This document shows, piece after piece, positions 3,427 through 20,692 of a DNA stretch of 23,317 bases. The notes beneath the pieces were generated by a model. The model did no database searches, was not told the DNA's origin, and worked only from the letters and a program-made list of their open reading frames with translations. Within the stretch, counting starts at the first letter, position 1; each line of letters opens with the position of its first letter. Source of the stretch: a virus; IMG/VR virus record IMGVR_UViG_3300025120_012366, positions 1 through 23,317 of that record; one strand, written 5' to 3'. Position numbers and translations under genes: made by a program.

Positions 3427-4758
3427 TTATTTGAATAAATATTTGCTAGTATCAAATAAATATTGTTTATTATCTAAATGTTCTTGATTATAATCCAATA
3501 AATTATTAATTGTTATTTTAAAACTGCCTATTTTATAGGTACCCTTATATCCCATTGGGTTAGATTTTTTAAGGTTATCAAATATTACGTTTGAATTTGA
3601 TATAAAATCTTTATTTTCTTGGCTATCTCTTTCTTTAGATAAAGTATACATATCCGTTTCTATAATAATATCCAAATCTGGGTTCCAGTTAAGTCCTACT
3701 GTTATTTTATCCTCAGCATCCTTACCCATAAATGTTGATCGTAATTTATCCCAATCTTGTTGAGTATATTTCCAACGTTGATTTGTAAAATAATGACTAT
3801 CATAATTAATCAAATTAACTAAAGCATCCTTAACAGGTTTATCATTTAATAGGATATTATCAAAATAAGGTTCAATACCAGATAATAATCCAATATCAGG
3901 TGCTGAGTTAATATCCAAAAATAGATGTGTTTTATATTTGGATCTATAATCATGCCCAAAATAACCCCATTTTCGAATAAAACGTTTTAATTCTTCTGCA
4001 TCTGCTCTACCTTGCCACCCATTAGTTATTTCTACTTGTTTATCATCATTTTTATACCATCCTGTTCCTCTAGATGAAACACAAGTATAATGATAAACAC
4101 TAGCATTCCATGTTTCTAAAGCATCTAATTTACAAGCAGCTAAACGGATAATAAAATCGGAATCTTCCCTAGAACATCTAAATCTAGTATCAAAACCACC
4201 TAATTTATCAAAATAAGTTTTTTTATATAAACCAAAAGGTGCAAAATGACCATAAATTAATGGTCTATTTTGTTTAGTTAAACTTCTAGCAAACTCCATA
4301 AATTCATCATATTGGAATTCATCTGGTGTTAGACCAAAACTTTTAGTTATTTTTTCAGGTGATTCTGGGTGTATAGGAGGCTCTATCCTAGCCATTGTAA
4401 TTACTCTATTAGTATCATTATTTAATGCTTCTAAAAAGTATTTATCAAATTCAGGGCTAACTACCATATCAGACTGTAAATAGCATACTATGTCATTTGA
4501 AGCATTTCCAAATAATATTGAAATATTTTTTTGGTATCCTATTCTATAACCAGTAGTATTTTTATAGATTTTAATATTAGATTTATCTTTCCTATATTCT
4601 AATAATTTTTCATATGTATTTTGATTATCAGAATCAATTAATACTAATACTTCATGTTTATTAAACTGGGTGTTTGCTACTAAACTATCTAACAAACCAA
4701 TAACATAATCTTTTTCATTATTGGCTGTTGTTATACAAAAACTAATTGATTGCATCAT
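3427..4758 (-). CDS. GT2-type glycosyltransferase with C-terminal extension
   Basis: This inverting GT-A glycosyltransferase probably adds a sugar to a growing surface glycan. The N-terminal 230 residues form the GT2 domain: SFCITTANNEKDYV at the start, the metal/nucleotide-binding site LQSDMVV (S96-D97-M98), an F..GLYKKTYFDKLGGFD acceptor region near 175-190, and the ED catalytic pair in REDSDF (E198-D199-S-D201). About 200 further residues of unassigned fold follow, making it longer than a minimal GT2. It is the last gene of the cassette and its start overlaps the reductase gene by 17 bases; a tandem ATG leaves 4758 or 4755 as start. Donor and acceptor are unknown, but the position directly after the branched-sugar genes makes that sugar a candidate donor. 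Confidence 0.82.
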   Translation of the reverse strand: MMQSISFCITTANNEKDYVIGLLDSLVANTQFNKHEVLVLIDSDNQNTYEKLLEYRKDKSNIKIYKNTTGYRIGYQKNISILFGNASNDIVCYLQSDMVVSPEFDKYFLEALNNDTNRVITMARIEPPIHPESPEKITKSFGLTPDEFQYDEFMEFARSLTKQNRPLIYGHFAPFGLYKKTYFDKLGGFDTRFRCSREDSDFIIRLAACKLDALETWNASVYHYTCVSSRGTGWYKNDDKQVEITNGWQGRADAEELKRFIRKWGYFGHDYRSKYKTHLFLDINSAPDIGLLSGIEPYFDNILLNDKPVKDALVNLINYDSHYFTNQRWKYTQQDWDKLRSTFMGKDAEDKITVGLNWNPDLDIIIETDMYTLSKERDSQENKDFISNSNVIFDNLKKSNPMGYKGTYKIGSFKITINNLLDYNQEHLDNKQYLFDTSKYLFK

Positions 4759-5530
4759 ATACTTTATTTATTCCTTGTTTTAATCCTATTAGATCTAACC
4801 CATCAAGATTTTTATAATTTCCTACATAAGGACTACCTAATTTTTTATTTTCTATTTTTATTTCACAGTAATGATTATTCCTTGTGTTTATATACTCAGC
4901 AATTTCTTTTAAAGTATAACTTTCTTTATAACAAGCATCTATTATTTTAATATCTGGGTGTAATATAATATGTTTTATTACAGTGGCCAAATCATCCATA
5001 TAAATAAAATCAAATAATTTATTTTGATGGATAACCATTGGTTCTTTATTTTTATAATTATTTAAACAGGTTTTAATAAATCTAGTATCCCATTCATTTT
5101 CATCAAATACTCCAAATATTCTAATATTATTTAATTTAGAATGAGAACTAATTGTATCAGCAATAATTAATTTACTTAAACCATAAGGATCTGAAGGCCA
5201 ATTTAATTCAGCTCCAGAACCAAGACTAATTAATTGTCCAAATCTATGAACATTAGCCATTAAATTATAAAACATTTTTAAATTATTAGCTAAAACATCA
5301 TTCCCATCTTTTTTTAATCTACTTCCCCCACAAATTGCTGTGTGGATAATAACATCAAAATAACCATATTTAGATAGAAAATCTGTTGTTGACTTTCTAT
5401 CTGTTAAATCAAAATCATCTCTTCCTACACCTACATAAAAATTAGGATAAGTAAAATCAAATAGTGAATCTAGCTTAGATAATAAACTACTCCCTACATA
5501 ACCATTTTTACCAGTAACTAATACTCTCAT
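4742..5530 (-). CDS. SDR-type nucleotide-sugar reductase/epimerase (YerF-like candidate)
   Basis: This short extended-SDR enzyme of 262 residues has an NAD(P)-binding GKNGYVG at 7-13, a catalytic Ser near 105 (SLGSGAE) and the YxxxK pair Y116/K120 (YGLSK). The size resembles dTDP-4-keto-rhamnose reductase and related ketoreductases more than 4,6-dehydratases, and I do not see the extra acidic dehydratase motif. It starts directly after the stop of the aldolase gene, without overlap. In yersiniose synthesis the ketone left by the TPP enzyme YerE is reduced by the SDR YerF, so the same job here is a reasonable inference. A 4-ketoreductase or an epimerase of another sugar cannot be excluded. Confidence 0.75.
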   Translation of the reverse strand: MRVLVTGKNGYVGSSLLSKLDSLFDFTYPNFYVGVGRDDFDLTDRKSTTDFLSKYGYFDVIIHTAICGGSRLKKDGNDVLANNLKMFYNLMANVHRFGQLISLGSGAELNWPSDPYGLSKLIIADTISSHSKLNNIRIFGVFDENEWDTRFIKTCLNNYKNKEPMVIHQNKLFDFIYMDDLATVIKHIILHPDIKIIDACYKESYTLKEIAEYINTRNNHYCEIKIENKKLGSPYVGNYKNLDGLDLIGLKQGINKVYDAIN

Positions 5531-6529
5531 TTATTTTTTAAGTTTTTGAGCTACTTCTAATATTAAATCTTCTTGTCCTGCTACTAATTTTCTATTACCT
5601 AACTCAAATATAAGTGAAGAATATTCAATACCATTTAGTTTAGAAGCTTTTATAATAGGTCTTTCAAAACCAGAAAATAATTTATTTAATCCTGTTAGCA
5701 CATTCACTGGGTTAGTTGTTGGGATTTTAGGTACTAAATAATCCATTACTTTGTCTGCTTCGATTATAACTTGTTTAAAATCTATATTCATATTAAAATT
5801 AGATTTTTCTAGTACTGGTAGTAATACTTCTAAAGGAGCATTACCTGCTCCAGCACCAAATCCTCTAATACAAGCATCTATATACTTAGCCCCATTTTGA
5901 GCTGCTATTAATGAATTAGATACAGCACATCCTAAATTATTATGAGCATGAAAACCTACATCAATACTAAGATTTTCAGTTAAAGCTTTAATTCTTTCTT
6001 CTACATCTGATGGTAAATAAGTACCTGTTGAGTCCATTATTATAACGGCTTCAGCTCCATATTGTTCCATAGTTTTAGCGTTTTCAACTAATGTTTTAGT
6101 ATCAGTTAAAGCTGTCATCATTAATACCCCTAAAGCAGTTACATCTTTATTTTGTAAATATTCTAAGTGTGATTTACTTAAGGTTGCTTCAGTACAATGG
6201 GTAGCAATTCTAACTACATTTACACCCATATCAATTGCTGGTTGTATATCTTTACCTACAGTAGCAATACCAGGTATAACATGAACTCCTAATTTACTAT
6301 TAGTTAATTGCTTTTTAGCTGTTTCTATTATTTCTTTGTCTGTATGAGTTGCCTTACCAATTAATAAAGATGAAGCCCCTAACCCATTTCCATGACCAAC
6401 TTCAACAATTGGTATATTTACTTTATTTGCGAATTTACAATATTCTTTAATACTTTTTAAACTAATAGTATGTTTTACGCTATGATTTCCGTCTCTAAGA
6501 GAAGAATCTGTTATAATAATATTATTCAT
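5531..6529 (-). CDS. 4-hydroxy-2-oxovalerate aldolase-like enzyme (DmpG/MhpE family)
   Basis: The TIM-barrel aldolase family interconverts 4-hydroxy-2-oxopentanoate with pyruvate plus acetaldehyde on a divalent metal. Motifs present are DSSLRDGNHSVKH at 8-20 (R12 and D13, with H16/H20) and the metal histidines H194/H196 in GFHAHNN, plus GFGAGAGNAPLE at 223-234, a family hallmark. By eye the catalytic Tyr of DmpG/BphI falls on N282 (GLNKLFSGF), which may alter acid/base chemistry. At 332 residues it has near-normal length. It overlaps the acetaldehyde dehydrogenase gene by eight bases, matching the channelling complex these two families form in aromatic catabolism. No catabolic genes are present here, so a synthetic direction feeding the adjacent TPP enzyme is more likely. 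Confidence 0.85.
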   Translation of the reverse strand: MNNIIITDSSLRDGNHSVKHTISLKSIKEYCKFANKVNIPIVEVGHGNGLGASSLLIGKATHTDKEIIETAKKQLTNSKLGVHVIPGIATVGKDIQPAIDMGVNVVRIATHCTEATLSKSHLEYLQNKDVTALGVLMMTALTDTKTLVENAKTMEQYGAEAVIIMDSTGTYLPSDVEERIKALTENLSIDVGFHAHNNLGCAVSNSLIAAQNGAKYIDACIRGFGAGAGNAPLEVLLPVLEKSNFNMNIDFKQVIIEADKVMDYLVPKIPTTNPVNVLTGLNKLFSGFERPIIKASKLNGIEYSSLIFELGNRKLVAGQEDLILEVAQKLKK

Positions 6530-7376
6530 CTTTTAAATGTTTTGTTATTTCAATTGCCGCACAATTAATTATATCTAAATTACCTGCATATTCAGGCAGA
6601 TAATCACCTGATCCTTTTACTTTGATACTTAATACTAAAATATCATCATTAATAACAGGTGGCATTACTAATTCATAATAAGGAATATAAGTTTGAAGTT
6701 TTTTTATAGTTTCATAAATTTCTTTAACTAAAGATGGAAACTTAATATTACCTGCTTTTACAAACATAGTGGTTTGCATATCAACTTGTGGTTCGGCAGG
6801 ATTTAAGTTCAATATTACTTTACATTCTTTACAATTTGTAAATTCTTTTATTGCTTTTTCTGTTGTATTAATATAATTATCAATATTAATTCTAGTTGCC
6901 ATACCAGCACTATCAGAAGCAATTTGAGATACTACTTCAATATAATCTAAATCAGAACAATGTTTAGATATTACATTTAACAATGGAGTTGATGCTTGAC
7001 CACCACAAGTAATCATATTAACATTTCCATTATCTTGTATAATTTTTGGGTTAATATTAGGAACACATAAATCTCCTACTTTAGCAGGTGTTAAATCTAT
7101 TACTTTTATTCCTTGTTTTGCAAATATTTTAGCATGTTCTATAGCATCTTTAGCACTAGTACAATCATATACTACATCACAACATTTAGGATTATCAATA
7201 AAATATTGAATACCTTTATCAGTTACAGTAATGTTTAAACCTTGAGCTAATTTAATACCATTAGATTCCATTCTTCTACCTGCAAATATTACGGGTACAA
7301 CAAAATCTGTTTTTCTTAATTTTAATAGTAAATCGGTTCCGATATTACCAGTCCCAATTATTCCTGCTTTTATCAT
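6522..7376 (-). CDS. Acylating acetaldehyde dehydrogenase-like enzyme (DmpF/MhpF family)
   Basis: The family reversibly converts acetaldehyde, CoA and NAD to acetyl-CoA and NADH. The N-terminus has the Rossmann motif GIIGTGNIGTDLL (5-17). The catalytic Cys is C124 in MITCGGQAS, the typical CGGQAT context, and the substrate/dimer region shows the ATRINIDNY and LNPAEPQ segments at about 160 and 192. At 284 residues it is slightly shorter than the usual length of about 300 to 315. It overlaps both neighbours (4 bases with the TPP enzyme, 8 with the aldolase). In this setting it could run in reverse to make acetaldehyde from acetyl-CoA for the aldolase. Assignment to family is firm; direction of flux is inference. 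Confidence 0.87.
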   Translation of the reverse strand: MIKAGIIGTGNIGTDLLLKLRKTDFVVPVIFAGRRMESNGIKLAQGLNITVTDKGIQYFIDNPKCCDVVYDCTSAKDAIEHAKIFAKQGIKVIDLTPAKVGDLCVPNINPKIIQDNGNVNMITCGGQASTPLLNVISKHCSDLDYIEVVSQIASDSAGMATRINIDNYINTTEKAIKEFTNCKECKVILNLNPAEPQVDMQTTMFVKAGNIKFPSLVKEIYETIKKLQTYIPYYELVMPPVINDDILVLSIKVKGSGDYLPEYAGNLDIINCAAIEITKHLKDE

Positions 7377-9163
7377 CTTTTAATTTGTTTTGATTTTTTA
7401 CTTATATCTACTATCATTTCATTTTTTAATTCTTCAAATGACACTAATGGAGACATTTCTTCTATTGGTGGTGCTAATATATTTCCATCTTCCATTGGTA
7501 CACCTTTTACTTTAGGTAAAAATCCCTGATTTGGATCCATAAATACTTCTAATATAGCTGGTCCATTGTGATTCAAAAATTCAGATAGTTTAGCATCTGT
7601 ATTATCCCAGTCTTTTAACTCAAAATAATTATAACCTAAAGCTGGGAATAATTTACTGAAATTAGGTAAACCAATACCTGTATTTTTATCTACACTAACG
7701 TATTTACCGTTAAATAACATTTTTTGTGTATGTTTTATCATTAAATAACCGTCATTATTAAATATAACGACCTTAACGTTTAATCCATTTTCTATAACAG
7801 TATGTAATTCTTGTAAATTCATCATTATACCACCATCACAATTAAGACATAATATGTCTTTATTAGGACAAGCTGCTGCTGCACCAACTGCTCCTGCTAT
7901 TCCATAACCCATTTCACCCAAACCTAAAGAAGTAAACATTTTTTGGTCTGATTTAAGTTTAATTGCTTGGTGACCACTTAATAATGCTGTCCCCATATCA
8001 GTAACTATAATATGGTCATTTTTTAAATGGTTAGATAATTTATCCATAAATTGATATGAATTAATATAATTATCTTTATGGTCATGTTCTTTATCTATCC
8101 AAGGGTATTTTTGTTTTTTATTATTACAATAGTCTAACCAAGTTTTATTTATAGGATTAATATCTTTAATATTATTTAATAATTGATCTAAAACAATGCT
8201 AACATTTTCTTTTATATGTAAATCAATATGTTCTTTTGGAGCTTGCAACTCATCAATATCAATACATATTATTTTACCATTACGTACAAATTCATTCCAA
8301 TCATAACCAGTTTGTGGTAAAGCTAATCTACTTCCTAATACAATTAATAAATCACAATTTTGAACTATGTAATTTGCTCCCCTTTGACCATATAAACCAA
8401 ATCTTCCAAAAAAATTAATATTACTATTATCCATTAAATCAATCCCCGACCAAGTTAAAGTTGTTGGAAGATTAGTTGTATTGATAAATTTATTAAACTT
8501 ATCTTTTGAATCTGACAATCTAATTCCATTTCCACCTAAAACTAATGGGCGCTTTGATGAATTAATAGCATTAACTAAAAATTTAGAATAATCTATAAAA
8601 TTAGCTGGAGGGTTTACTTCTATATCCCAATCCCTTTTATTTACCATTTTAGATTGAATATTAAATGGAATATCTAACCATGTAGGTCCTTTTCTATCAT
8701 CTAAAGAAATTTTAGTACATTTTTCTAATTCATCTTGGATGTTATTTTCATCCATTAAACAATGAGAATATTTAGTAACATCCTCTACCATTTTAGTTAT
8801 ATTAAATCCTTGTGTACCATACATTCTTAATTTAGAATGTTCTTCAATATGGTAAGAAGATTCATTACCTGAAATTATAATACCTGGTATTGAATCAGCC
8901 CAATTACTTACTACACCTGTTACTGCATTAGATGCTCCTGCTCCTGCTGTTACTATTGCAGCAGACATTTTTCCAGATGCTCTAAAGTGAGCTCCAACAG
9001 CCATAACTGCAGCTTGTTCATGATGTGTATTAATAATTTTAGTATATCCTAATGTATTAATAGAATCAAATATATGAGAATTTGCAGAACCTATTATACC
9101 AAATACGGTTTTTATTTTTTGTTCTTTTAAAAACTCAGCTACTAAATCACTTACTTTTACCAT
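7373..9163 (-). CDS. TPP-dependent acetolactate-synthase-like enzyme (YerE-like carboligase candidate)
   Basis: This full-length (596 aa) thiamine-diphosphate enzyme of the acetohydroxyacid synthase/benzaldehyde lyase superfamily has an N-terminal PYR domain with catalytic E49 (HHEQAA), a central domain at about 190-340, and a C-terminal PP domain. The cofactor motif there runs from CDGG (442-445) to NN (469-470), a variant of GDG. No regulatory subunit gene and no other branched-chain amino-acid genes are present, so valine/isoleucine synthesis is unlikely. It lies between an RmlB gene and the acetaldehyde dehydrogenase/aldolase pair. In yersiniose synthesis, YerE of this superfamily decarboxylates pyruvate and adds the two-carbon unit to C4 of a 4-keto-3,6-dideoxyhexose. 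I infer an analogous branch-forming reaction, with the acyl donor open (pyruvate or 4-hydroxy-2-oxopentanoate). Confidence 0.85.
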   Translation of the reverse strand: MVKVSDLVAEFLKEQKIKTVFGIIGSANSHIFDSINTLGYTKIINTHHEQAAVMAVGAHFRASGKMSAAIVTAGAGASNAVTGVVSNWADSIPGIIISGNESSYHIEEHSKLRMYGTQGFNITKMVEDVTKYSHCLMDENNIQDELEKCTKISLDDRKGPTWLDIPFNIQSKMVNKRDWDIEVNPPANFIDYSKFLVNAINSSKRPLVLGGNGIRLSDSKDKFNKFINTTNLPTTLTWSGIDLMDNSNINFFGRFGLYGQRGANYIVQNCDLLIVLGSRLALPQTGYDWNEFVRNGKIICIDIDELQAPKEHIDLHIKENVSIVLDQLLNNIKDINPINKTWLDYCNNKKQKYPWIDKEHDHKDNYINSYQFMDKLSNHLKNDHIIVTDMGTALLSGHQAIKLKSDQKMFTSLGLGEMGYGIAGAVGAAAACPNKDILCLNCDGGIMMNLQELHTVIENGLNVKVVIFNNDGYLMIKHTQKMLFNGKYVSVDKNTGIGLPNFSKLFPALGYNYFELKDWDNTDAKLSEFLNHNGPAILEVFMDPNQGFLPKVKGVPMEDGNILAPPIEEMSPLVSFEELKNEMIVDISKKSKQIKR

Positions 9164-10146
9164 ATAAAATTTTCTTTATAATATTCTATAATTTTAGGTA
9201 ATTCTTTATCAAAATCCATTTTAGGTTCCCATCCTAAATTTCTTAACTTATCATCATTTAAAGCATATCTAACATCTTGTCCCTGTCTTGAATATGAAAA
9301 ATCTAAATATTGATTTATTTGGTTTTGATCATAATGGGGAAATGTTTCAGTTATAACTTCATCTTCCGGGTGATATAATGTAATTAATCTACTTACAGTA
9401 TCCCAATTACTTTGTTCAAATCCTCCACAAATATTATATATTTCATTTTTAACTTTACTATTAATAATAGTTAATACGGCATTAGCAGTATCTTGGGCAT
9501 GTAACCAATTACGAATAGGATCACCATTATTATGTAATGGAATTTTTTTACCTAAACCTAAATATTTAACTGACTTTGGAATTAATTTTTCTGTATATTG
9601 GCCTACTCCATAATTATTTGTTGGCCTTAATATAACATAAGGTATATTATATGTTCTACCCCAGGCAGTAATTAATTGATCAGCAGCTGCTTTTGTCGCT
9701 GAGTATGGGTTTGAAGGTTTTAAAATATCTGTTTCAATATGTTCTCCTTCTGTAATATCACCATAGACTTCATCTGTTGAAAAATGCAATAATATAGGTA
9801 ATTTATCTGTTTCTGCTCTATAATTTCTAATTAATTCTAATAAATTATGTACTCCATTAATATTTGAATGAACAAAATTTTCACTTTTAACTATAGAATT
9901 ACCTACATGGGTTTCTGCTGCTGTGTTAATAATATAATCACATTCATAAAGAAATTCTATATCATTTATATCAGTTTCCTCAAAAATGAAATTGGGATAT
10001 TCTAAAAATTCATCTAATAAATTTGGGTTTGAAGCATAAGTCATTATATCTATCCCTCTTACATACCATCCTTTTTTTAAACATTCTCTTGTTACATAGG
10101 ATCCTATAAACCCTAAACAACCTGTTACATAAACTACTTTATTCAT
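9157..10146 (-). CDS. rfbB: dTDP-glucose 4,6-dehydratase (RmlB-like)
   Basis: This extended SDR would convert dTDP-glucose to dTDP-4-keto-6-deoxyglucose, the entry to many deoxysugars. Visible features are the NAD site TGCLGFIG (8-15), the dehydratase triad region FSTDEVYGD with T124-D125-E126, and Y148/K152 in YSATK. RPTNNYG and the RNWLHAQD segment near 218 are also typical. The length of 329 matches the family. STDEVYG is the RmlB form; CDP-glucose dehydratases (RfbG) have a different triad region. No RmlA, RmlC or RmlD is seen in the window, so the 4-keto intermediate is probably not destined for rhamnose; the next gene is the TPP carboligase. Confidence 0.9.
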   Translation of the reverse strand: MNKVVYVTGCLGFIGSYVTRECLKKGWYVRGIDIMTYASNPNLLDEFLEYPNFIFEETDINDIEFLYECDYIINTAAETHVGNSIVKSENFVHSNINGVHNLLELIRNYRAETDKLPILLHFSTDEVYGDITEGEHIETDILKPSNPYSATKAAADQLITAWGRTYNIPYVILRPTNNYGVGQYTEKLIPKSVKYLGLGKKIPLHNNGDPIRNWLHAQDTANAVLTIINSKVKNEIYNICGGFEQSNWDTVSRLITLYHPEDEVITETFPHYDQNQINQYLDFSYSRQGQDVRYALNDDKLRNLGWEPKMDFDKELPKIIEYYKENFIW

Positions 10147-10147
10147 A

Positions 10148-11005
10148 TTAATTATCTATATTTATCCAATTAGAAGGATAATACTTACCATTAATCCAAG
10201 ATGATGGATGTGAAGGTTCTACATAATTAGTAGGACATATTATCTTTTTATTTTTGTTTTTACTTAAAAATGCACCCCACCAAGAATAAGAACTATTAGA
10301 TATAATGTGATTGTCACATAAACTTAATAATGCCAGATCTTCTTTTTCAGATGCTGTAAAACTTTGCTCATCAACTCCTTTAGGTTCTACAAACCAAACA
10401 TTATCTCCATCTAGTACTGATTTTGAATATTCAATGTCATTTGAAAATATTAAAAAATTAAAATCATTAGCAGGCATAAAATGGGATGTTATTGCTTTTA
10501 GGAAATATTCTTGTTTAAGTTCACAAAATGAATGTTGGGGTAACAAATAATCACCTCTTCTCATATGAATACTAACAGTTGGTTTTTTTCCTAATTTAGA
10601 TTGAATTGTATCAAATTCTTGTTGTGCTATACTTTGTATTTCATCATTATATTTCCAACTTTCAATTTCATTTTTAATATCATTATACCAATAAGTGTAT
10701 AAATCAAATCTACCATTTAAATCATAATTTGATGAATCTAAACTAAATAAAGTTTCATCATAAGTAGTATTATGGAAATTAATATTTTTTAATTTAAAAT
10801 CATTAAAAAATTCATCAGGTTTTATAATTACAGGTATATTTAAAAGTTTAAATACTTTTATTCCAAATCCACGTTTAATCATAGATTCGGAAAATACTAT
10901 TTGTTTATTATTTGCTTTAGCAACAGCAGTTAAACTAGCATAGGATTGAAGTTGAGATCCCATTCCACCTGATTCGCCTAAATTTGAAAATGTTATATAG
11001 CTCAT
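10148..11005 (-). CDS. GT11 family alpha-1,2-fucosyltransferase-like enzyme
   Basis: GT11 enzymes transfer L-fucose (and close relatives) from the GDP-sugar to a galactose-like acceptor with inversion. The hallmark HMRRGDY is at 147-153 (GDP-binding Arg). The second conserved block, SNSSYSWWGAFL at 236-247, and the final YPSNWI at 276-281 are also present, and length (285 aa) is normal. It overlaps gmd by four bases, so a GDP-6-deoxyhexose made by the neighbouring enzymes is the natural donor: GDP-L-fucose, or GDP-L-colitose if the ColD-like enzyme acts first. Family is secure, donor specificity is inferred. Confidence 0.88.
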   Translation of the reverse strand: MSYITFSNLGESGGMGSQLQSYASLTAVAKANNKQIVFSESMIKRGFGIKVFKLLNIPVIIKPDEFFNDFKLKNINFHNTTYDETLFSLDSSNYDLNGRFDLYTYWYNDIKNEIESWKYNDEIQSIAQQEFDTIQSKLGKKPTVSIHMRRGDYLLPQHSFCELKQEYFLKAITSHFMPANDFNFLIFSNDIEYSKSVLDGDNVWFVEPKGVDEQSFTASEKEDLALLSLCDNHIISNSSYSWWGAFLSKNKNKKIICPTNYVEPSHPSSWINGKYYPSNWINIDN

Positions 11006-11973
11006 TTTAATTCTTTTAACCAGTATTTAATCATATCGTCCATTAAAGATACAAAATCATGTTTAGGTTTCCAACCTAAATCCCTTAATAAAGTTGAATC
11101 TCCTTTTAGGTCATGTAATTCTTCTGCCCTATAATATTTAGGATCTACTTTAACATAATCTTTATAATTTAAGTCTAATTTATTAAAAACATATTCACAT
11201 AAATCTCTAACACTATGTGATACACCAGTAGCACAAACATAATCATTTGGTTTATCTTGTTGTAATATTAACCACATAGCTTCAACAAAATCTTCTGCAT
11301 GGCCCCAGTCTCTAGTTGCTTCTAAATTACCTAATGCTAATTCATTTTTTAAACCATATTTAATTTGCACAGCAGCTTTAACTACTTTATTAGTTACAAA
11401 ATTAGTACCTCGTCTTGGTGATTCATGGTTAAATAAAATACCATTACATATAAACATATCATAAGAATTCCTGTAATTTCTGCATATATTATACGAGAAT
11501 ACCTTGGCACAACCATAGGGCGATACAGGATGTAAAGGTGTAGTTTCTCTTTGGTATCCATCGTTATCTACAGAGTTACCAAACATTTCAGATGATGAAG
11601 CCTGATATATTTTAGCGTTAGGTTTTGTTAATTTTACTGCTTCTAATAACTTAAGTGTACCAATTCCTGTGGTTTGTGCTGTATAAATTGGTTGGTCAAA
11701 ACTAATTCTAACATGAGATTGAGCTGCTAAATTATAAATTTCATCTGGTTGGCATAATTGTATTACTCTAATAAGTGAAGATAAATCGTTTAAGTCAGCA
11801 TATTCTAAATTTAATTTGGAAAATAATTCATCTGGTATTCTAGCTGTTTGATTTTCAGCTACAGAATTTCTTTTTACTGTGCCCCAAACTTCATAACCTT
11901 TCTTATTTAAAAATTCAGCTAAATAAGAACCATCTTGACCATTTATACCTGTAATTAATGCTACTTTATTCAT
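11002..11973 (-). CDS. gmd: GDP-mannose 4,6-dehydratase
   Basis: The enzyme makes GDP-4-keto-6-deoxy-mannose, the shared precursor of GDP-fucose, GDP-colitose, GDP-perosamine and GDP-rhamnose. Seen in the sequence: the GMD-type nucleotide site ITGINGQDGSYLAE (7-20), YNLAAQSHV at 80-88, the catalytic S-S-E in QASSSEMFG (126-132), Y153/K157 in YGCAK, and LFNHESPRRG at about 179-189, which is highly specific to this family. The length of 323 fits the shorter bacterial forms. It overlaps its neighbours by 4 and 8 bases. Because the ColD-like gene precedes it and a Fcl-like gene lies just beyond, the three make a compact GDP-dideoxyhexose module. Confidence 0.94.
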   Translation of the reverse strand: MNKVALITGINGQDGSYLAEFLNKKGYEVWGTVKRNSVAENQTARIPDELFSKLNLEYADLNDLSSLIRVIQLCQPDEIYNLAAQSHVRISFDQPIYTAQTTGIGTLKLLEAVKLTKPNAKIYQASSSEMFGNSVDNDGYQRETTPLHPVSPYGCAKVFSYNICRNYRNSYDMFICNGILFNHESPRRGTNFVTNKVVKAAVQIKYGLKNELALGNLEATRDWGHAEDFVEAMWLILQQDKPNDYVCATGVSHSVRDLCEYVFNKLDLNYKDYVKVDPKYYRAEELHDLKGDSTLLRDLGWKPKHDFVSLMDDMIKYWLKELK

Positions 11974-13120: not shown

Positions 13121-13994
13121 AAACTTGTTTTAATCCTTCTTTTAAACCTGTAAATTTAAAATGAGGAAATATTTCTAATAACCTTTTATTACTAACATCT
13201 TTTCTAAATTGACCATCTAAATCTGGTCTATCATAAATAATTTCATAATCTTTTTCTGTAACCTCTAAAGCGATTTTAGCCATTTCATTTATAGAATAAT
13301 TAAAATCAGGTGCTACATTAAAATTTTCAGTAATATCATTACTAATAACTAATTTAATTATATCTGCTAAATCACTTGCATACATAAATTGCCTTAATGG
13401 TTTTCCTGTACCTAATAAATTTAGTTTATTATCTTTAGCATTTTTAATTTTATTTAGTAAAGCTGTAATAAAGTGCATTTTGCTATCATTATGTAAATTA
13501 TCATAATCACCATATAAATTACATGGAATTAAGTAATTATATTTAGTACCAAATTGTTTATTATAAGCATCTATTTGAACTGCTAAACAACGCTTAGCAT
13601 ACCCATAACTAAAATTAGATGGTGGTGGTGGGCCTATAAATAAATCTTCTTCAGTCATTGGATAATTTTCAACAACACTAGGATAAATACAAGTACTTAA
13701 AATACCTATAAATCTTTTAACATCATGATCCTTACATACTTTAACAATATTGGTATTAATTAAAATATTATCATCAAAATAATCTGCAGGATATTTGATA
13801 TTATCTTGAATACCACCAACACGAGCAGCTAAATGTACAACAATATCTGGTTGGTATGATGATATTAACCATTTAACTTGTGTAATATTAGTTAAGTCAC
13901 AATCTTTACTACTTAAATAAAAGGCATTAGGTAATATTTTTTGTAAATGTTTACCTACTAAACCTGAACCACCAGTAACTAAAATTTTACTCAT
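13104..13994 (-). CDS. GDP-L-fucose synthase / ColC-like epimerase-reductase
   Basis: The protein belongs to the Fcl family of SDRs that epimerise and reduce GDP-4-keto-6-deoxymannose (Fcl) or its 3-deoxy form (ColC). With the start at 13994 it has 296 residues: ILVTGGSGLVG at 4-14, AARVGGI at 56-62, S100-T-C102 in STCIYP, Y130/K134 in YGYAK, and H174 in KMHFITALL. The equivalents of Cys109 and His179, the acid/base pair for epimerisation in E. coli Fcl, are both kept. An earlier ATG at 14027 would add 11 residues (MFVTKLKNFLN) and deepen the overlap with the preceding gene. I prefer 13994, where MSKILVTGG begins in register with family members. Position beside the ColD-like gene favours ColC; Fcl itself remains possible. 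Confidence 0.85.
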   Translation of the reverse strand: MSKILVTGGSGLVGKHLQKILPNAFYLSSKDCDLTNITQVKWLISSYQPDIVVHLAARVGGIQDNIKYPADYFDDNILINTNIVKVCKDHDVKRFIGILSTCIYPSVVENYPMTEEDLFIGPPPPSNFSYGYAKRCLAVQIDAYNKQFGTKYNYLIPCNLYGDYDNLHNDSKMHFITALLNKIKNAKDNKLNLLGTGKPLRQFMYASDLADIIKLVISNDITENFNVAPDFNYSINEMAKIALEVTEKDYEIIYDRPDLDGQFRKDVSNKRLLEIFPHFKFTGLKEGLKQVYDKIS

Positions 13995-15132
13995 ATTTAA
14001 AAAATTCTTTAATTTTGTCACAAACATAATCTACGTCATCTAAATCCATACCATGATGTGCTCCTAATAAAAATCCATCTTTCATTACTTTATCAGCATT
14101 TTCAAAATCTTGTAAATATTCTCTATAAATAGGATGTCTAGTAACATTACCTGCAAATGTAACTCTTGTTTGTATATTATTATCCTCTAAATAATTAAGT
14201 AATTCTAATCTACGTTCAGTTTGTAGTGGAATTGCTAACCAATTAGGTTCAATACTATCATCTGGAAGTAGTATTTCTTTAACATCTTTAAGGTTTTTAA
14301 TATAACGTTCAATATTATCTCTTCGTTTTTGTTTAAATGTTTGAAATCGTTCTAATTGTACTAAACCAAAAGCGGCACTCATTTCGCTACATTTCATATT
14401 ATAACCTAATACTCCATATAAAAATTTATAATCATAAGGTAACCCATCAACATCATGAGCAAAACGCTCATCCATATTTTCACTATTATCTCCTATTCTA
14501 CCCCAATCTCTATACTGTAATGCTCTTTTTACGTGTTTTTCATCATTAAACATTACCATTCCTCCCATTCCACCAGCTGTAATAACATGAGAAGCATAAA
14601 AACTAGTAGTAGAAACATCTGATTCTTTTGTATAAGATACAGTGTCTGCTGAATCTTCAATAACAAATATATCTTCTCTATTTATTGCCTTTAAACCTTT
14701 TTTTAATGCTTTCCAATCTGGTTTATTTCCTATTAGATTAGGAACCATAATTGCTGTTGTATCATCTGTGATAGCATCTAATATAGCTTGAATATCAGGT
14801 ACATATGATGTTAAATTGGAATCTATAAAAATTGGAATATATCCTAACTGAATAATTGGAGCTAAAGTAGTTGAAAATGTTAAAGCAGGGGTTATAATTT
14901 TACTTCCTTTAGGTAAGTTTAAAGCAGCTAATGCAAGTAAACAGGCTGATGAACCCGAGTTAACAAATACTCCAAATTTTTTACCAAACTCTTTTGCTAT
15001 TTTTTTCTCAAATTCTACTGAGCGAGGACCAAAACCAGCTAACCAACCATCTCTAAGACATTGTTCTACTGCTTTTATTTCTTCTTCACCATAAGCTTCT
15101 AATCTATTAGGTGCATACCATACTTTTTTCAT
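13987..15132 (-). CDS. DegT-fold sugar 3-dehydratase-like enzyme, second paralog (His at PLP-Lys site)
   Basis: A second 381-residue DegT-superfamily enzyme shows NSGSSA at 58-63 for the phosphate, D160 in VIEDSAD for the pyridine nitrogen, and H182 in SFYASHVITAGGMGG where aminotransferases have Lys. The motif also differs from the usual one by what looks like an extra Gly and by Met instead of the customary Glu before GG. This makes a transaminase unlikely and a PMP-dependent 3-dehydratase likely. The clustered cysteines that hold the 2Fe-2S centre in RfbH are not apparent. It is clearly not a recent duplicate of the 11966-13120 gene: little sequence is shared outside motifs. It may supply the 4-keto-3,6-dideoxy intermediate for the RmlB/TPP branch. 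Its start overlaps the GT9-like gene in ATGA fashion. Confidence 0.8.
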   Translation of the reverse strand: MKKVWYAPNRLEAYGEEEIKAVEQCLRDGWLAGFGPRSVEFEKKIAKEFGKKFGVFVNSGSSACLLALAALNLPKGSKIITPALTFSTTLAPIIQLGYIPIFIDSNLTSYVPDIQAILDAITDDTTAIMVPNLIGNKPDWKALKKGLKAINREDIFVIEDSADTVSYTKESDVSTTSFYASHVITAGGMGGMVMFNDEKHVKRALQYRDWGRIGDNSENMDERFAHDVDGLPYDYKFLYGVLGYNMKCSEMSAAFGLVQLERFQTFKQKRRDNIERYIKNLKDVKEILLPDDSIEPNWLAIPLQTERRLELLNYLEDNNIQTRVTFAGNVTRHPIYREYLQDFENADKVMKDGFLLGAHHGMDLDDVDYVCDKIKEFFKYE

Positions 15133-16064
15133 ATTACTTCTATTATTTTATTATATACTTTTTTATAATTGGGATGACACTCAAAAGTAGGTCTATTATC
15201 TAAACACTTAACTTGAGGGGGAACTCCCATAATATCTCCCCATTCTTTAATATTATACTTCATATTACTAGAACAAAATTCAGCACATGAACCTAATACA
15301 TATTCATAATTATGTGATTGGGATCCATTTCTCCAAGGTGCTCTTAATTTAGGATGTATTGAACTTCCTAATTGTAATATACGAACATCTGTTGTCCCAG
15401 CCAAATGTAAAATACCAGAATCCATAGTAACTACCATCAATGCTTCATTTTTCATCATCCACCTTAATTCAGCAGGATCATTAGTAGGATCATTAAGTAA
15501 ACTTTTACCTAATTTAATATTAATATCCATTACTGGTTTTTGTGTATTATAAAATCCTACTTCACTAGAATCTCTACCAATTGCTACTACAGGTATTCCT
15601 GCATCATTTAATAAATCAATCAAACCCTGCCATTGTTTTTGATCCCAAGTTCTAGTTGCCCAAGTATGTGTAGGATGAATCATTACATATTTTCCTAAAT
15701 TTAATGGTCTGGGTTTTTCAATATAAATGTCAATTTCCATTTCATCTGGGGATAAAGAGAATCCTAATGATGTAGCGTGAAATTGTCTAAAATCATGATT
15801 TGAATATCTAAATTCTGTTTTTTGGCCATCTATATTATAATTTTTACCTACTATTGGACTAAATGTAGTATAAACCTTATAACCATCAGTAGATGCATCT
15901 AAAGGTAATGCTTCTTTTACTAATGGATGATTTTCAAATAAAAATGGTTTTGAGGTAAAAATAGTTAAAGGTGATTCATATGCTTCGCATAATTTCCTAA
16001 GTGTAGGAATAGCTGCTAGAGTATCACCTAGTGCTGGGGTATCTATTTTTAGTGCTACATTCAT
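15129..16064 (-). CDS. GT9 (heptosyltransferase)-like glycosyltransferase
   Basis: The 311-residue GT-B protein shows heptosyltransferase-family features: an N-terminal ALGDTLAAIPTLRKL (11-25) resembling the GD-x-x-x-x-P-x-L start of GT9 enzymes, a mid-domain MIHPTHTWATRTW segment at 128-140 that begins the second Rossmann half, and VTMDSGILHLAGT at 212-224, the nucleotide-binding loop with D215-S-G and H220. A C-terminal part with four Cys (260, 264, 287, 296) is unusual for GT9 and might bind metal. The donor need not be heptose, since no ADP-heptose genes are present. Neighbouring genes overlap by 1 and 4 bases. Confidence 0.75.
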   Translation of the reverse strand: MNVALKIDTPALGDTLAAIPTLRKLCEAYESPLTIFTSKPFLFENHPLVKEALPLDASTDGYKVYTTFSPIVGKNYNIDGQKTEFRYSNHDFRQFHATSLGFSLSPDEMEIDIYIEKPRPLNLGKYVMIHPTHTWATRTWDQKQWQGLIDLLNDAGIPVVAIGRDSSEVGFYNTQKPVMDINIKLGKSLLNDPTNDPAELRWMMKNEALMVVTMDSGILHLAGTTDVRILQLGSSIHPKLRAPWRNGSQSHNYEYVLGSCAEFCSSNMKYNIKEWGDIMGVPPQVKCLDNRPTFECHPNYKKVYNKIIEVI

Positions 16065-16687
16065 TATAATGTATTATAATACGAATTTTGTTTTTCTTGT
16101 CTTTTTATATCTTTTGGGTGATAAATAGCAAAATCTTCTAATGCTGGAAGTAATGCATGGGTTTTATGTCCTTCTAATACTTCATGTACTTTATTTCTCC
16201 ATTTAATTTCAGGTTTATTTTTCCAAATACGCCATTGATAATCAGGCCAATTAACCCAACCTTTATTATCTACTCTCCATCCCCATTTTTGTATATGTTC
16301 ATCTGTTAATTTTGTAACAGTATTAACCCTAGGTACTAAATAAACTTCATTATTAGGATTAGATTCTACTATTCGAGGTAAATTTTTTATTAATAACCTA
16401 TTTGGAACTTCATCAGCATCAATCTGGAATATATAATCACCATTACAATAAGAATTAAGTAAATTTTTCCAATCAGCAAAGTGATTATTAAAATCTCCAG
16501 AATACCACATAAATTGATTATTAACAGAATGTGATCTTAAAAATTCCTCAACTCCTTTATCACCATTTTTAGAATCATATAAAATAACTATTTCATCTTC
16601 ATCTCTTTTATGATCAAGGAGAAATAAAACTAATTTTTGTATTTCTACAAATTCATTACAAACTGTTATTGCATAACTTATTTTCAT
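16064..16687 (-). CDS. GT2 glycosyltransferase (WaaE/KdtX-like)
   Basis: This compact GT-A transferase of 207 residues starts MKISYAITVCNEF, has the acceptor/fold motif NHFADWKN at 68-75 and the metal site QIDADE at 88-93 (D90/D92), then a Trp-rich stretch near 136-170 (KWGWRVDNKGWVNW, EIKWRNKVHEVLEG). That combination resembles the WaaE/KdtX glucosyltransferase group of LPS-core enzymes. It is short for GT2 but carries the full catalytic half. It begins in an ATGA overlap with the SDR gene and ends in a TAATG overlap with the GT9-like gene. Donor and acceptor are unknown. Confidence 0.8.
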   Translation of the reverse strand: MKISYAITVCNEFVEIQKLVLFLLDHKRDEDEIVILYDSKNGDKGVEEFLRSHSVNNQFMWYSGDFNNHFADWKNLLNSYCNGDYIFQIDADEVPNRLLIKNLPRIVESNPNNEVYLVPRVNTVTKLTDEHIQKWGWRVDNKGWVNWPDYQWRIWKNKPEIKWRNKVHEVLEGHKTHALLPALEDFAIYHPKDIKRQEKQNSYYNTL

Positions 16688-17529
16688 AAACTAAATATAT
16701 AATCTCTTAATTGATCAGATGGTTCCCAACCTAATATATCTAAACTATCATCATTTTCACGTAAAGTAGTTTTATAATTACCTGGTTGGTCTGGGATTGT
16801 TATAAATTCGCAACCGAATTTTTCTTTAAACATTAAATAGACATCATTAATAGAATAATTTATTCCTGTGCCCAATTCCCAAGCATCTTTATGTTTTTTA
16901 TTTTTCATTCCAATTCTAAAAAGACCTTCAACTATATCACCTATATAGGTAAAATCTCTTCGTTGTTCACCATCTCCTACTATTGTTATAGGTTTATTAT
17001 TTTTAACTTGATCCCTCCAAATACCTATTACAGCAGCCCAAGTACCATCTACTATTTCATGTTCACCATAAACATTATAAAATCTAGCTATTTCCATATC
17101 TAAACCATAAGTTCTACGATACATTTTTATAGTTTCTTCTCCTAAAAATTTACTTGTAGCATAAGGTGAAGTATGTGGATCACACCATCTAGAAGACGAA
17201 CCGGCATAAACTAATTTAGCACCAGTTAATCTAGCAAACTCACAAACTCTTTGAGTGCCTACAGTGTTTACTCTGAATGTTTCTTGTGGATTATTAAATG
17301 ATTCTTGTATTCGAGCTAAAGCAGCTAAGTGAAATATTAAATCAAAATCCTTATCCATAGTATTAATATTAGTAATATCATTACGATGATAGGCACATCC
17401 CATTTGTTCATTAGATTTTAGTCCTGTTTCATAATTATCTAATGAATGAACATTATGGCCTTTTTTAATTAATTTTTTAATTAAATTTGTACCAATAAAT
17501 CCTGCTCCTCCTGTTACTAGTATTTTCAT
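16684..17529 (-). CDS. UDP-glucose 4-epimerase-like SDR
   Basis: This extended SDR acts on a nucleotide sugar. The NAD site TGGAGFIGTN is at 6-15, HLAALARI at 67-74, the catalytic Ser in SSS at 111-113, and Y123/K127 in YATSK. RFYNVYG at 149-155 and the IVGDGEQRRDFTYIGD block at 183-198 are typical of GalE/WbpP-type epimerases, and the absence of a T-D-E or S-S-E triad argues against a 4,6-dehydratase. The length of 281 is shorter than GalE (about 340) and similar to phage and LPS-cluster variants. It probably supplies an epimerised UDP-hexose or hexosamine for one of the flanking transferases. There is a one-base gap from the preceding gene and a four-base overlap with the GT2 gene. Confidence 0.82.
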   Translation of the reverse strand: MKILVTGGAGFIGTNLIKKLIKKGHNVHSLDNYETGLKSNEQMGCAYHRNDITNINTMDKDFDLIFHLAALARIQESFNNPQETFRVNTVGTQRVCEFARLTGAKLVYAGSSSRWCDPHTSPYATSKFLGEETIKMYRRTYGLDMEIARFYNVYGEHEIVDGTWAAVIGIWRDQVKNNKPITIVGDGEQRRDFTYIGDIVEGLFRIGMKNKKHKDAWELGTGINYSINDVYLMFKEKFGCEFITIPDQPGNYKTTLRENDDSLDILGWEPSDQLRDYIFSL

Positions 17530-17530
17530 A

Positions 17531-17974
17531 TTATTCTGGTAGTAGTCCTATATAAGATAAAGCATCTATATAATCACGTTCTTTAAATTGTTCCATGTTC
17601 CCCATGTCCATTTTATATTTTTGGCCTTCTACTTTAGCTTCGTCCCCATCTTCTAATTCTATAGCTTTAACAGCCGCCCATTTCCATTCCATAGCATTAG
17701 TACCATTTGCAAATATCATTCCTTTATCTTCTATATTAATAGTATTAGGTACCCAGATATAATTAGTTTCTGGGTCTTCCCAAGCTAAATCCTTATATAA
17801 TTCTGGTAAAGTGGACATTTGCTCATTATAAAAATCACTATCTAAAGTCATTAATGAATTAGTCCAAAACCCACAAGATAAACTTAAATAATTTGTAATT
17901 TTATCGTTTATTTCTGTTTTATAACATAAATCGCCTCCTGTTTTAGGGCAATGTATTATAGTATCATGATTCAT
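17531..17974 (-). CDS. Conserved-looking hypothetical protein, CPxTG-type Cys motif
   Basis: This 147-residue soluble protein sits inside the glycan operon with single-base gaps on each side. Near its N-terminus C9-PKTGGDLC17 looks like half of a metal-binding knuckle, with a further Cys at 34 (LSCGFW). The middle is rich in Trp and acidic residues (WEDPETNYIWVP, EWKWAAVKAIE). No signal peptide or membrane segment is present. I do not recognise an enzymatic family. Position between a transferase and an epimerase hints at an accessory role in glycan assembly, but phage genes can be co-transcribed without shared function. Confidence 0.65.
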   Translation of the reverse strand: MNHDTIIHCPKTGGDLCYKTEINDKITNYLSLSCGFWTNSLMTLDSDFYNEQMSTLPELYKDLAWEDPETNYIWVPNTINIEDKGMIFANGTNAMEWKWAAVKAIELEDGDEAKVEGQKYKMDMGNMEQFKERDYIDALSYIGLLPE

Positions 17975-17975
17975 A

Positions 17976-19253
17976 TTAATCTACTTTAGTTAGTTGAGAT
18001 AAATTAAGTTTAACTTGTTGAGATGTTTCAGGTACATTATTTTCTAAAATATCAGACAACATTTCTTTCATTTTATCATAGCTAAAATTATTTTTAGCGT
18101 GATATTTTTGTTTTTTAGCCATTTGGTGAAATTGTTTATATTTTTTATAAACATTTTTCATTTGAGACATAGCATGTTGATAACTTACTTGAAACCATTC
18201 TGATTCTGCTATTAACCAATTATTCGCTGCACTAGGGTGAACTTTTTCTAAATTCCCAGGTAATAAAGATACATATTGAGGATTTAAAAAATCAGTATGT
18301 CCACTCCAATTTGAAGCAATAATAGGTTTTCCTGATAGTGAAAATTCTAATAATGGTCTTCCAAATCCTTCTCCTTTTGTAAATGAGATTAAAGATTTTA
18401 CTTTAGGATGATTATACAATTCATTCATTTCTTCATCACTAAATTCTCCACTAAGTAAATATATATTAGGCAAATTACTTCCCCCTACTAATTCTTTTAT
18501 TGATTTAATTCTATCTAAAATTTCATCTCTACTTATATAAGAGGCAACCCCAACAGAACATTTTAAGATTAAGGCAGGTTTTACTTTTTTATTTTTAAAT
18601 GCCTCATAAAAAGTTTTTATAGTTATTCCTATATTTTTTCTATCATGACCTAATGCTCCTTGCATCCAATGTCCTACAGATAAAAAACAAAACTGTTCTG
18701 GTATATCTTTTAAATTAATAGTTTTTAATTCTTTTGGAGATAAAGTTTTATAAAGGTCTAAATTAATTCCTTCAAATAAAACTTGCATTGGTTTGTTTAA
18801 TTTTACATTTCCTACTACTTGTCCTGTTCTTTGATCTTTTTTCTCAAATGACATTCTTTGAAATGTTTCTTTAGCAAAATTAGAAGATACTAAATTTAAA
18901 TCCATTCTATTTAATCCTTCAATCCATTCTGGTTTACATGCAGTAGATTCAATCCCAGCTGTTAACCCTATATTATATTTCCCAACAGGTTGAAATTCAT
19001 TAGGAATTGTTATTTGCATCCATAAATCGGGTTTAGATTCTTGCCAATTTCTTTGAGCTAAATGTTTGTATAAAAAATTCCATTCAGGATGATCTTTACA
19101 AAACCCCCAAGATGTTTCTCCCCATTTTTGGGATAAAAGTTCAACCTTATATTTATCTAATTCAATTACTGCTTTAACAAAATCTCTTGATCTTGCTCCA
19201 TATCCTGAGTAAGTGTCAAAAGGACATGATATTACAAATCTTGGTTTATTCAT
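17976..19253 (-). CDS. GT-B glycosyltransferase, GT4-like
   Basis: The 425-residue retaining-type glycosyltransferase starts with FVISCPFDTYSGYGARSRDF (7-26), the glycine-rich N-terminal loop of GT4 enzymes. The C-terminal Rossmann half contains the E-x7-E signature with E295 and E303 in GEGFGRPLLEF, followed by GKPIIASNWSGHTDFL. This is normal family length. It starts on the stop codon of the upstream GT4-like gene (TAATG), so the two are probably translated together and may act in sequence. No membrane segment is visible. Donor unknown. Confidence 0.82.
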   Translation of the reverse strand: MNKPRFVISCPFDTYSGYGARSRDFVKAVIELDKYKVELLSQKWGETSWGFCKDHPEWNFLYKHLAQRNWQESKPDLWMQITIPNEFQPVGKYNIGLTAGIESTACKPEWIEGLNRMDLNLVSSNFAKETFQRMSFEKKDQRTGQVVGNVKLNKPMQVLFEGINLDLYKTLSPKELKTINLKDIPEQFCFLSVGHWMQGALGHDRKNIGITIKTFYEAFKNKKVKPALILKCSVGVASYISRDEILDRIKSIKELVGGSNLPNIYLLSGEFSDEEMNELYNHPKVKSLISFTKGEGFGRPLLEFSLSGKPIIASNWSGHTDFLNPQYVSLLPGNLEKVHPSAANNWLIAESEWFQVSYQHAMSQMKNVYKKYKQFHQMAKKQKYHAKNNFSYDKMKEMLSDILENNVPETSQQVKLNLSQLTKVD

Positions 19254-20692
19254 TAATATATAATTTTATGGTTTAATGTTTTTCCTTTATATTTATTTGC
19301 ATTAATAATTTCATATTTTTCTCTTGGTTTCCAAGTTTTAAATAATTCATCAAATGCTTCAATAACTCTTTTCCCTTGTTTTTCACCTGTAAATCCAGCT
19401 TCATCACTCATAGCCCATTTTCTACCAGCTAATCCTCTTTTTTCTCTTTCTTCAGGGGATAAATTATATACTTCTTTAATTCTATCTGTTACATCCTCCC
19501 AAGCACATCTATCATCATAAATGTAAGGTGTTGGAGGTGAACCTTGAATTGATCTTGAAGTAGGGTAAACTGGGAACGCCCATTCACCGTGTTTTTTATA
19601 AGTTCCTCTATGGTTAGAAGGTACATTTTCATCTGGTTCAAACCATTTTCCTTCATTATCTACAAACCTCATTTGGTCTTGCATTCCACCAGTAACATTA
19701 GCTATAATAGGTGTTCCTGCTAATATAGCTTCTGTCAATGTTAATCCCCACCCTTCATTAGATGTTATTAAAATTTGACAATCTGCCATATTATATAAAT
19801 AATTTAATTGGTTTGTTTCTAATCTATTATCAATAATTTGAACATTATTTGGATAATCCTGAGAGAAGAAATATTCTTTTACTTTCCCTAAATGTGTTCC
19901 AGCATCTGTTACTAATTCAGTTTTCATTAACAACAAACATTTATCAGCCTTCTCTTTAGGTAAACTATCTAAAAATGCTCTAAACGCTAACATTGTATCT
20001 GGAATTTGTTTTCTTCTAATATTTCTGGAGTTAAAAAATAAAACAAAATCATATTCTTTATTTCCAAAAGTATCTTTTTTCCATTTTACAAATTCTGGGT
20101 TGTCCTTTTTTATAGGTTTATAAATGTCACTATTTAAACCATGAGGAACATATTTAAATATTCTTGGTTTATTAACATTTTTTAATACTATTTTATTTAT
20201 GTTAACTGTTTGTTTTGATATTCCCATTAATAAATCACAAGCTTCATAATAAGGTTGATTATACTGTGGTGCTGGGTAGTCATCCCAAATATTTAAATAT
20301 GCAATTGGGATTGATTTTCTTATTTCTTGTTCCATATTCCAAACATGCATGAAATATCTTGGATCCGTAATTAACATTATAGCATCGGGTCTTTCTATAT
20401 TAATTATTTCTCTAATAACTCTATTTTCACCATACCCATCTACTGGATACAACATAACAGAAGGATCTTCAACACCACTCATATTTGTTGTATCTGCTGA
20501 TATGTCTAATCTCTTACCAGCTTCAGGATGTTTTATCGATCCTGCTATATTAACCCAATTAAAATGTTGGCAAGTTTGTAGAATAATTTCTTTAGCTACA
20601 GTAGCTACTCCTGAATGTACTCTAATATCATCACATATTAAGAGTATCTTTTTTCTTTTATCCTTAGGGATATATTTAAAGTCTTTATTCAT
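19253..20692 (-). CDS. GT-B glycosyltransferase, GT4-like (first of the cassette)
   Basis: This 479-residue protein has the GT4 layout: LICDDIRVHSGVATVAKEI at 18-36 as the N-terminal nucleotide-sugar loop, YVPHGLNSDIY at 181-191 (domain linker, very typical), and the E-x7-E motif E313/E321 in NEGWGLTLTEA with GTPIIANVTGG after it. Its start lies eight bases inside the ribbon-helix-helix gene, so it is translationally coupled to that regulator. It is only distantly similar to the following GT4-like gene, so this is not a recent duplication. The acceptor could be lipid-linked glycan or the phage's own target; the sequence does not say. Confidence 0.82.
   Translation of the reverse strand: MNKDFKYIPKDKRKKILLICDDIRVHSGVATVAKEIILQTCQHFNWVNIAGSIKHPEAGKRLDISADTTNMSGVEDPSVMLYPVDGYGENRVIREIINIERPDAIMLITDPRYFMHVWNMEQEIRKSIPIAYLNIWDDYPAPQYNQPYYEACDLLMGISKQTVNINKIVLKNVNKPRIFKYVPHGLNSDIYKPIKKDNPEFVKWKKDTFGNKEYDFVLFFNSRNIRRKQIPDTMLAFRAFLDSLPKEKADKCLLLMKTELVTDAGTHLGKVKEYFFSQDYPNNVQIIDNRLETNQLNYLYNMADCQILITSNEGWGLTLTEAILAGTPIIANVTGGMQDQMRFVDNEGKWFEPDENVPSNHRGTYKKHGEWAFPVYPTSRSIQGSPPTPYIYDDRCAWEDVTDRIKEVYNLSPEEREKRGLAGRKWAMSDEAGFTGEKQGKRVIEAFDELFKTWKPREKYEIINANKYKGKTLNHKIIY

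Follow-up and report, generated by a model that had tools for sequence, protein, structure and literature searches.

What does a phage make with a carboligase, an aldolase and an acetaldehyde dehydrogenase set among glycosyltransferase genes? This question is raised by the IMG/VR virus record IMGVR_UViG_3300025120_012366, which was analyzed here as the complete record of 23,317 bases (GC content 28%; hereafter the window). Nearly all of its genes lie on the minus strand. Five of them, within positions 4742-10146, abut their neighbours or overlap them by 4-8 bases, and encode an RmlB-like nucleoside diphosphate (NDP)-glucose 4,6-dehydratase, a thiamine diphosphate (ThDP) carboligase, an acylating acetaldehyde dehydrogenase (AcDH), a pyruvate aldolase, and a short-chain dehydrogenase/reductase (SDR). 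An initial annotation had placed these five genes here and named their families, and all were found at the positions given, on the minus strand (Table 1). It is likely, as judged from the sequence comparisons below, that this module gives the phage, itself probably T4-like, a pathway for a long-chain deoxy sugar branched at C4, whose four-carbon branch would come from 4-hydroxy-2-oxopentanoate.

Gene identities, active-site residues, synteny, and selection can be read directly from the sequence. Among the solved structures, JanthE (8rph) matches the ThDP enzyme with 557 bits, while the next one, 5ahk, reaches 249 bits, about half of that. I take 5ahk to be PpYerE, a more distant relative. The phage enzyme and JanthE share 43% identity over 593 residues and the rare CDG motif. 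The JanthE residues Glu53, Y268, P293, Y297, H494, F564, and K567 are kept, while V121 is replaced with Thr and S498 with Met. In the phylogenetic tree, the viral ThDP enzymes form a clade that branches beside the bacterial clade containing JanthE. Both its nearest relatives and the genes around it, which would serve 4-keto-3,6-dideoxy sugar synthesis, place the enzyme in the YerE-like group of ThDP carboligases. JanthE accepts 4-hydroxy-2-oxovalerate together with benzaldehyde (PMC12188165). The phage enzyme is probably the one that forms the branch at C4.

Is such chemistry known? ErwE of Pectobacterium atrosepticum joins a hydroxy 2-keto acid to CDP-4-keto-3,6-dideoxyglucose on the way to erwiniose. 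Pyruvate is not a donor for it, and its preferred donors are 4-hydroxy-2-oxobutanoate, -pentanoate, or -hexanoate; the activity was demonstrated in vitro on an analogue of the acceptor (2025 review, PMC12247030). It was thus an error of the initial annotation that no enzymatic route had been assigned for this sugar. The chemistry itself is already assigned in bacteria; the novelty lies in the viral setting, in its conservation, and in the residue predictions given below. The likeness to the ErwE pathway lies in a YerE-like ThDP enzyme that would use a 4-hydroxy-2-oxo acid as donor for a 4-keto-3,6-dideoxy sugar, with the same predicted carbon skeleton. The likeness drawn here is one of chemistry. 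The ErwE pathway is bacterial and CDP-linked, whereas that of the phage is viral and probably dTDP-linked. The YerE/YerF pathway for yersiniose also has ThDP-dependent branching at C4 of a 4-keto-3,6-dideoxyhexose but, unlike the phage module, takes a two-carbon donor from pyruvate and a CDP sugar (PMC12247030).

The aldolase and the AcDH would supply the donor. The aldolase scores 327 bits on TIGR03217 (cut-off 286), keeps the metal and catalytic residues of DmpG (R17, D18, H21, H200, and H202), and has the communication domain. The AcDH scores 309 bits on TIGR03215 (cut-off 282); its best solved relative is 7z3s (236 bits), and the catalytic Cys is kept in 70 of 70 aligned sequences. In these respects the two resemble the DmpG-DmpF and BphI-BphJ pairs. 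Unlike those, the phage pair has His and Phe in place of the Leu87 and Tyr290 (BphI numbering) typical of the catabolic enzymes, falls in a separate clade, and is predicted to work in the biosynthetic direction, the AcDH probably running in reverse from acetyl-CoA to acetaldehyde. The aldolases of sugar loci, the window included, number 71, and many are so closely related that the residue counts are drawn from kin sequences: the Leu87 position is His in 70, and Tyr290 is replaced with Phe in 68 and with Met in 3. In contrast, all 29 comparison aldolases, which come from a single bacterial order (Burkholderiales), have Leu or Ile at the former position and Tyr at the latter. The sole His/Phe aldolase in the sample from this order is that of KB13, which has the sugar cluster; the gene cluster of JanthE itself was not among the 399 sampled genomes of the order. 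The sugar-linked aldolases form one clade apart from the catabolic comparison enzymes (SH-aLRT 100). Two aldolase loci branch nearest to this clade; their surroundings are without sugar genes and look catabolic.

The residue change bears on stereochemistry. BphI produces only (4S)-4-hydroxy-2-oxopentanoate; Y290F removes this control, and the L87N/Y290F and L87W/Y290F variants act on the (4R) form only (PMC3962088). By analogy, the product of the phage aldolase is predicted to be (4R)-4-hydroxy-2-oxopentanoate, although His is absent among the engineered BphI residues.

Where does the keto-sugar acceptor come from? The closest solved relative of the RmlB-like protein is the dTDP-glucose dehydratase 2hun, and the CDP-glucose dehydratase model gives just 65 bits. 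The enzyme probably makes the 4-keto-6-deoxy intermediate. The initial annotation regarded the five genes as the full route to a 3,6-dideoxy sugar, but the probable 3-dehydratase sits outside them, upstream in the same operon (13987-15132), where a colitose-like gene set (10148-14027) had also been overlooked. The best solved relative of this 3-dehydratase is RfbH (3bcx, 200 bits), and the His in its motif TSFYASHVITAGG falls on the catalytic His of RfbH (Lys in the 3bb8 variant). Both DegT-fold proteins of the window have His in place of the aminotransferase Lys, as ColD and RfbH do. Unlike RfbH, the 3-dehydratase has no [2Fe-2S] cysteines in the corresponding region, and because of this it may work like ColD. 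It is the probable maker of the 4-keto-3,6-dideoxy acceptor. The other DegT-fold protein, the ColD-like one, probably serves a second sugar. Gmd, a ColD-type 3-dehydratase, and a GDP-fucose-synthase-like enzyme make up the GDP-colitose pathway, and the corresponding genes of the window together with the GT11 gene are probably a GDP-colitose-like set. The genes for CDP-glucose entry as in the erwiniose pathway, RfbF and RfbG, are absent from the window. In 20 related viral records, which are mostly fragments, neither RmlA nor RfbF (TIGR02623) was found over cut-off, and the phage thus probably draws on the NDP-glucose of its host. Given the RmlB homology, a dTDP linkage of the sugar is more probable than a CDP linkage.

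The proposed pathway is as follows. The RmlB-like enzyme and the His-type 3-dehydratase would convert host NDP-glucose, probably dTDP-glucose, to NDP-4-keto-3,6-dideoxyglucose. The AcDH would reduce acetyl-CoA to acetaldehyde, and the aldolase would join this with pyruvate to give 4-hydroxy-2-oxopentanoate, predicted to be (4R). The ThDP enzyme would decarboxylate this acid and add a 3-hydroxybutanoyl unit to C4 of the keto-sugar. The SDR of the module, a probable branch-ketone reductase, would then yield a 4-C-(1,3-dihydroxybutyl)-3,6-dideoxyhexose, and the glycosyltransferases of the operon would put the sugar on a cytoplasmic acceptor, perhaps a virion protein. The C4-branching mechanism of the initial annotation fits all the comparative evidence obtained, while the acceptor nucleotide, the stereochemistry, and the reduction step, like the reaction direction and the final acceptor, are left to inference. 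Its suggestion of an erwiniose-like product holds for the predicted carbon skeleton, which is that of erwiniose; the product need not be erwiniose, because the phage sugar is probably dTDP-linked. Erwiniose is presumably a D-gulo-octose derivative, in which case its C7 would be (R), like the (4R) acid.

Is the module conserved? A viral scan gave 60 loci and a genome scan gave 28 (referred to by L numbers). Among the viral loci, 54 have more than 45% identity, and 41 of these were left after dereplication at 97%; most of the viral records are fragments. Wherever 2.2 kb or more of downstream DNA is available (38 dereplicated viral loci), a pyruvate aldolase gene lies next to the ThDP gene: a DmpG-type aldolase in 35 and an HpaI-type pair in 3. 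The RmlB-like gene is found no more than two genes upstream of the ThDP gene in 35/39 dereplicated viral loci, the SDR follows the aldolase in 30/33 loci with enough DNA, and a His-type 3-dehydratase is present in 25/31. The gene order of RmlB-like enzyme, ThDP enzyme, AcDH, aldolase, and SDR is repeated in dozens of viral contigs, far beyond chance. The 3-dehydratase of the window type is conserved alongside the module in L001-L007, L018, and L058, and other viral loci have a longer RfbH-like protein instead. Compared with L007, L018, and L002, the ratio of nonsynonymous to synonymous substitutions (dN/dS) is about 0.05-0.21 for the aldolase, AcDH, ThDP, and RmlB-like genes. It stays under 0.1 for the 3-dehydratase gene, and the SDR is less constrained; dS values near or above 0.8 are partly saturated. 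One viral locus (L005:3757-4320) has a 2-oxoglutarate-Fe(II) oxygenase gene between the 3-dehydratase gene and the RmlB-like gene, possibly for further modification of the sugar.

In L026 (11764-14375), L039, and L046, the AcDH/aldolase pair is replaced with two HpaI-family proteins and an LdpA-like Fe-S protein. Within the viral clade, these three loci are the only ones whose ThDP enzymes have GDG for CDG and Leu at the F564 position. They form one clade nested in the viral group, and hence represent one event. Other variation was seen in the ThDP genes: L052, L053, and L060 have two adjoining open reading frames (ORFs), each matching a part of the enzyme, as two subunits of a split protein would, and the ThDP enzymes of L069-L071 and L074, from actinobacterial metagenome-assembled genomes, carry TDG at the position of the JanthE CDG.

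The initial annotation also proposed a search of bacterial polysaccharide loci for the same trio. It was found that bacterial AcDH-aldolase-ThDP genes commonly lie beside homologues of RfbF, RfbG, and RfbH, as in CDP-3,6-dideoxyhexose clusters; all three are over cut-offs in L065, and RfbF and RfbG are in L061. L061 is a Flavobacteriaceae contig that has homologues of RfbF, RfbG, and RfbH; its ThDP gene falls inside the viral clade, and this placement suggests phage-host exchange. The expectation that the module on a phage would be new was borne out as far as the searches reached. There is no close relative among the deposited annotated phage records searched, whose best matches have about 30% identity (several are annotated as acetolactate synthase, in records apparently holding bacterial DNA), and no earlier description of the viral module was found in the literature searched. 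One groundwater virome paper gives the aldolase as an auxiliary gene with no sugar context.

Other explanations have to be weighed. One is that the branching is the same and the acceptor is GDP-4-keto-3,6-dideoxymannose, made by the Gmd and ColD-like enzymes encoded just upstream of the module. This is unlikely: the His-type ColD-like gene occurs only in the window, L007, and L015 and so is not conserved with the module, whereas across the viral loci the module comes with an RmlB-like enzyme and a 3-dehydratase of RfbH-like or ASH type. The four upstream genes also fit a separate colitose-type set. Quite unlikely is a yersiniose-type reaction, in which the unit added by the ThDP enzyme would be a two-carbon acetyl group derived from pyruvate, with some other role for the aldolase and AcDH. 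YerE does use pyruvate (PMC12247030), and JanthE accepts it too (PMC12188165). Against this, no viral locus with enough DNA lacks a pyruvate aldolase gene next to the ThDP gene, and this holds also for those with the HpaI type in place of the DmpG type. In addition, the relatives without the AcDH/aldolase pair, from four gut Firmicutes, fall in a separate, distant clade. The yersiniose pathway is not known to include an aldolase or dehydrogenase.

It is improbable that the pair makes another 4-hydroxy-2-oxo acid, for example from propionyl-CoA, which would give a five-carbon branch. BphI-class enzymes take propionaldehyde (PMC3962088), and ErwE takes 4-hydroxy-2-oxo acids of several lengths (PMC12247030), but the position of BphI Leu89, which limits chain length, has Ile or another hydrophobic residue in the sugar-linked and comparison aldolases alike, with no pointer to longer chains. 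Finally, it is very improbable that the module is one of auxiliary metabolism, with an acetolactate synthase in the ThDP enzyme and a pair that supplies the host with acetyl-CoA and pyruvate. In favour of it, general acetolactate synthase models match the protein, all below cut-off among the matches listed. Against it, JanthE scores far above any acetolactate synthase of solved structure, the genes sit in a glycosyltransferase operon where no upstream hydratase-pathway gene was seen, and the sugar-linked aldolases form their own clade.

Several points weigh against the four-carbon branching pathway. The RmlB-like protein reaches 289 bits on TIGR01181, below the cut-off of 365, and the 3-dehydratase reaches 262 bits on the NCBIfam RfbH model NF011936, below the cut-off of 423. 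JanthE takes other keto acids in addition to pyruvate (PMC12188165). The residue change in the aldolase goes back to the ancestor of one clade and counts as about one event. The association of CDG or GDG with the donor genes comes from three viral loci that form a single clade, and among distant bacterial ThDP enzymes GDG occurs together with a DmpG-type pair. The SDRs of viral and bacterial loci are unlike each other. The window is a fragment, and further genes may be missing.

Table 1. Features of the operon in the window
Feature	Position	Strand	Remarks
GT2 glycosyltransferase	3427..4758	-	PF00535; directly downstream of the module; homologue after the module in most viral loci
Extended SDR (NDP-sugar epimerase/reductase type)	4742..5530	-	262 aa; PF01370; GxxGxxG and YGLSK motifs
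DmpG/BphI-class pyruvate aldolase	5531..6529	-	332 aa; TIGR03217, DmpG_comm domain
AcDH	6522..7376	-	284 aa; TIGR03215
YerE/JanthE-like ThDP carboligase	7373..9163	-	596 aa; CDG motif; three thiamine pyrophosphate domains
RmlB-like NDP-glucose 4,6-dehydratase	9157..10146	-	329 aa; STDEVYGD and YSATK motifs
GT11 (colitose-like set)	10148-11005	-	family matches
Gmd (colitose-like set)	11002-11973	-	family matches
ColD-like 3-dehydratase (colitose-like set)	11966-13120	-	best solved relative ColD/WbdK, 202 bits; His kept
GDP-fucose-synthase-like SDR (colitose-like set)	13104-14027	-	family matches
Pyridoxal phosphate-type sugar 3-dehydratase, DegT fold	13987..15132	-	RfbH-like; His for aminotransferase Lys
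GT9, GT2, SDR, 147-aa protein, two GT1-type enzymes	15129..20692	-	contiguous, overlapping

The module is part of a single compact run of 17 ORFs (3427-20692) whose members overlap or lie no more than one base apart; it encodes GT1, GT2, GT9, and GT11 glycosyltransferases, sugar-modifying SDRs, and the two DegT-fold proteins in addition to the five module genes. Clamp-loader-like and exonuclease-like genes lie upstream of the operon, and lysozyme-like and HNH-like genes lie downstream. No Gp23-type capsid gene is present in the window; one is over cut-off in 7 of 20 related viral contigs, all larger than 130 kb. The 147-aa protein (17531-17974) is without family matches, and recurs next to a GT1 gene in many viral loci. 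The sole long plus-strand ORF (20349-20834), which overlaps a GT1 gene on the opposite strand, is probably spurious. The protein encoded at 343-1272, rich in Ser, Thr, and Gly and weakly matching Golvesin_C, may decorate the virion or belong to a fibre, and is a possible glycan acceptor.

Neither a flippase (PF01943) nor an initiating transferase (PF02397) was found in the 20 related viral records, and a crude hydropathy scan gave no clear membrane protein in the window operon. Because of this, the sugar more likely goes to a cytoplasmic acceptor, for example a virion protein, than into a standard Wzx/Wzy surface polysaccharide. A tentative extension, which I put forward as a possibility, is that T4-like phages have evolved their own dTDP-based long-branched pathway, with a (4R) aldolase, exchangeable donor cassettes matched to the ThDP motif, and a virion or cytoplasmic target rather than host lipopolysaccharide.

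What does the module mean for phage biology? Viruses have been named as a possible source of new functions in this field (PMC12247030). The conserved viral version indicates that phages can carry most or all of the route to a long-branched sugar, and a phage glycosylation system without a recognised exporter is suggested. The viral loci offer dozens of natural variants with readable donor cassettes. Since two aldolase residues, and perhaps the CDG/GDG motif, are predicted to track the donor, the determinants of donor choice in these enzymes can be tested directly.

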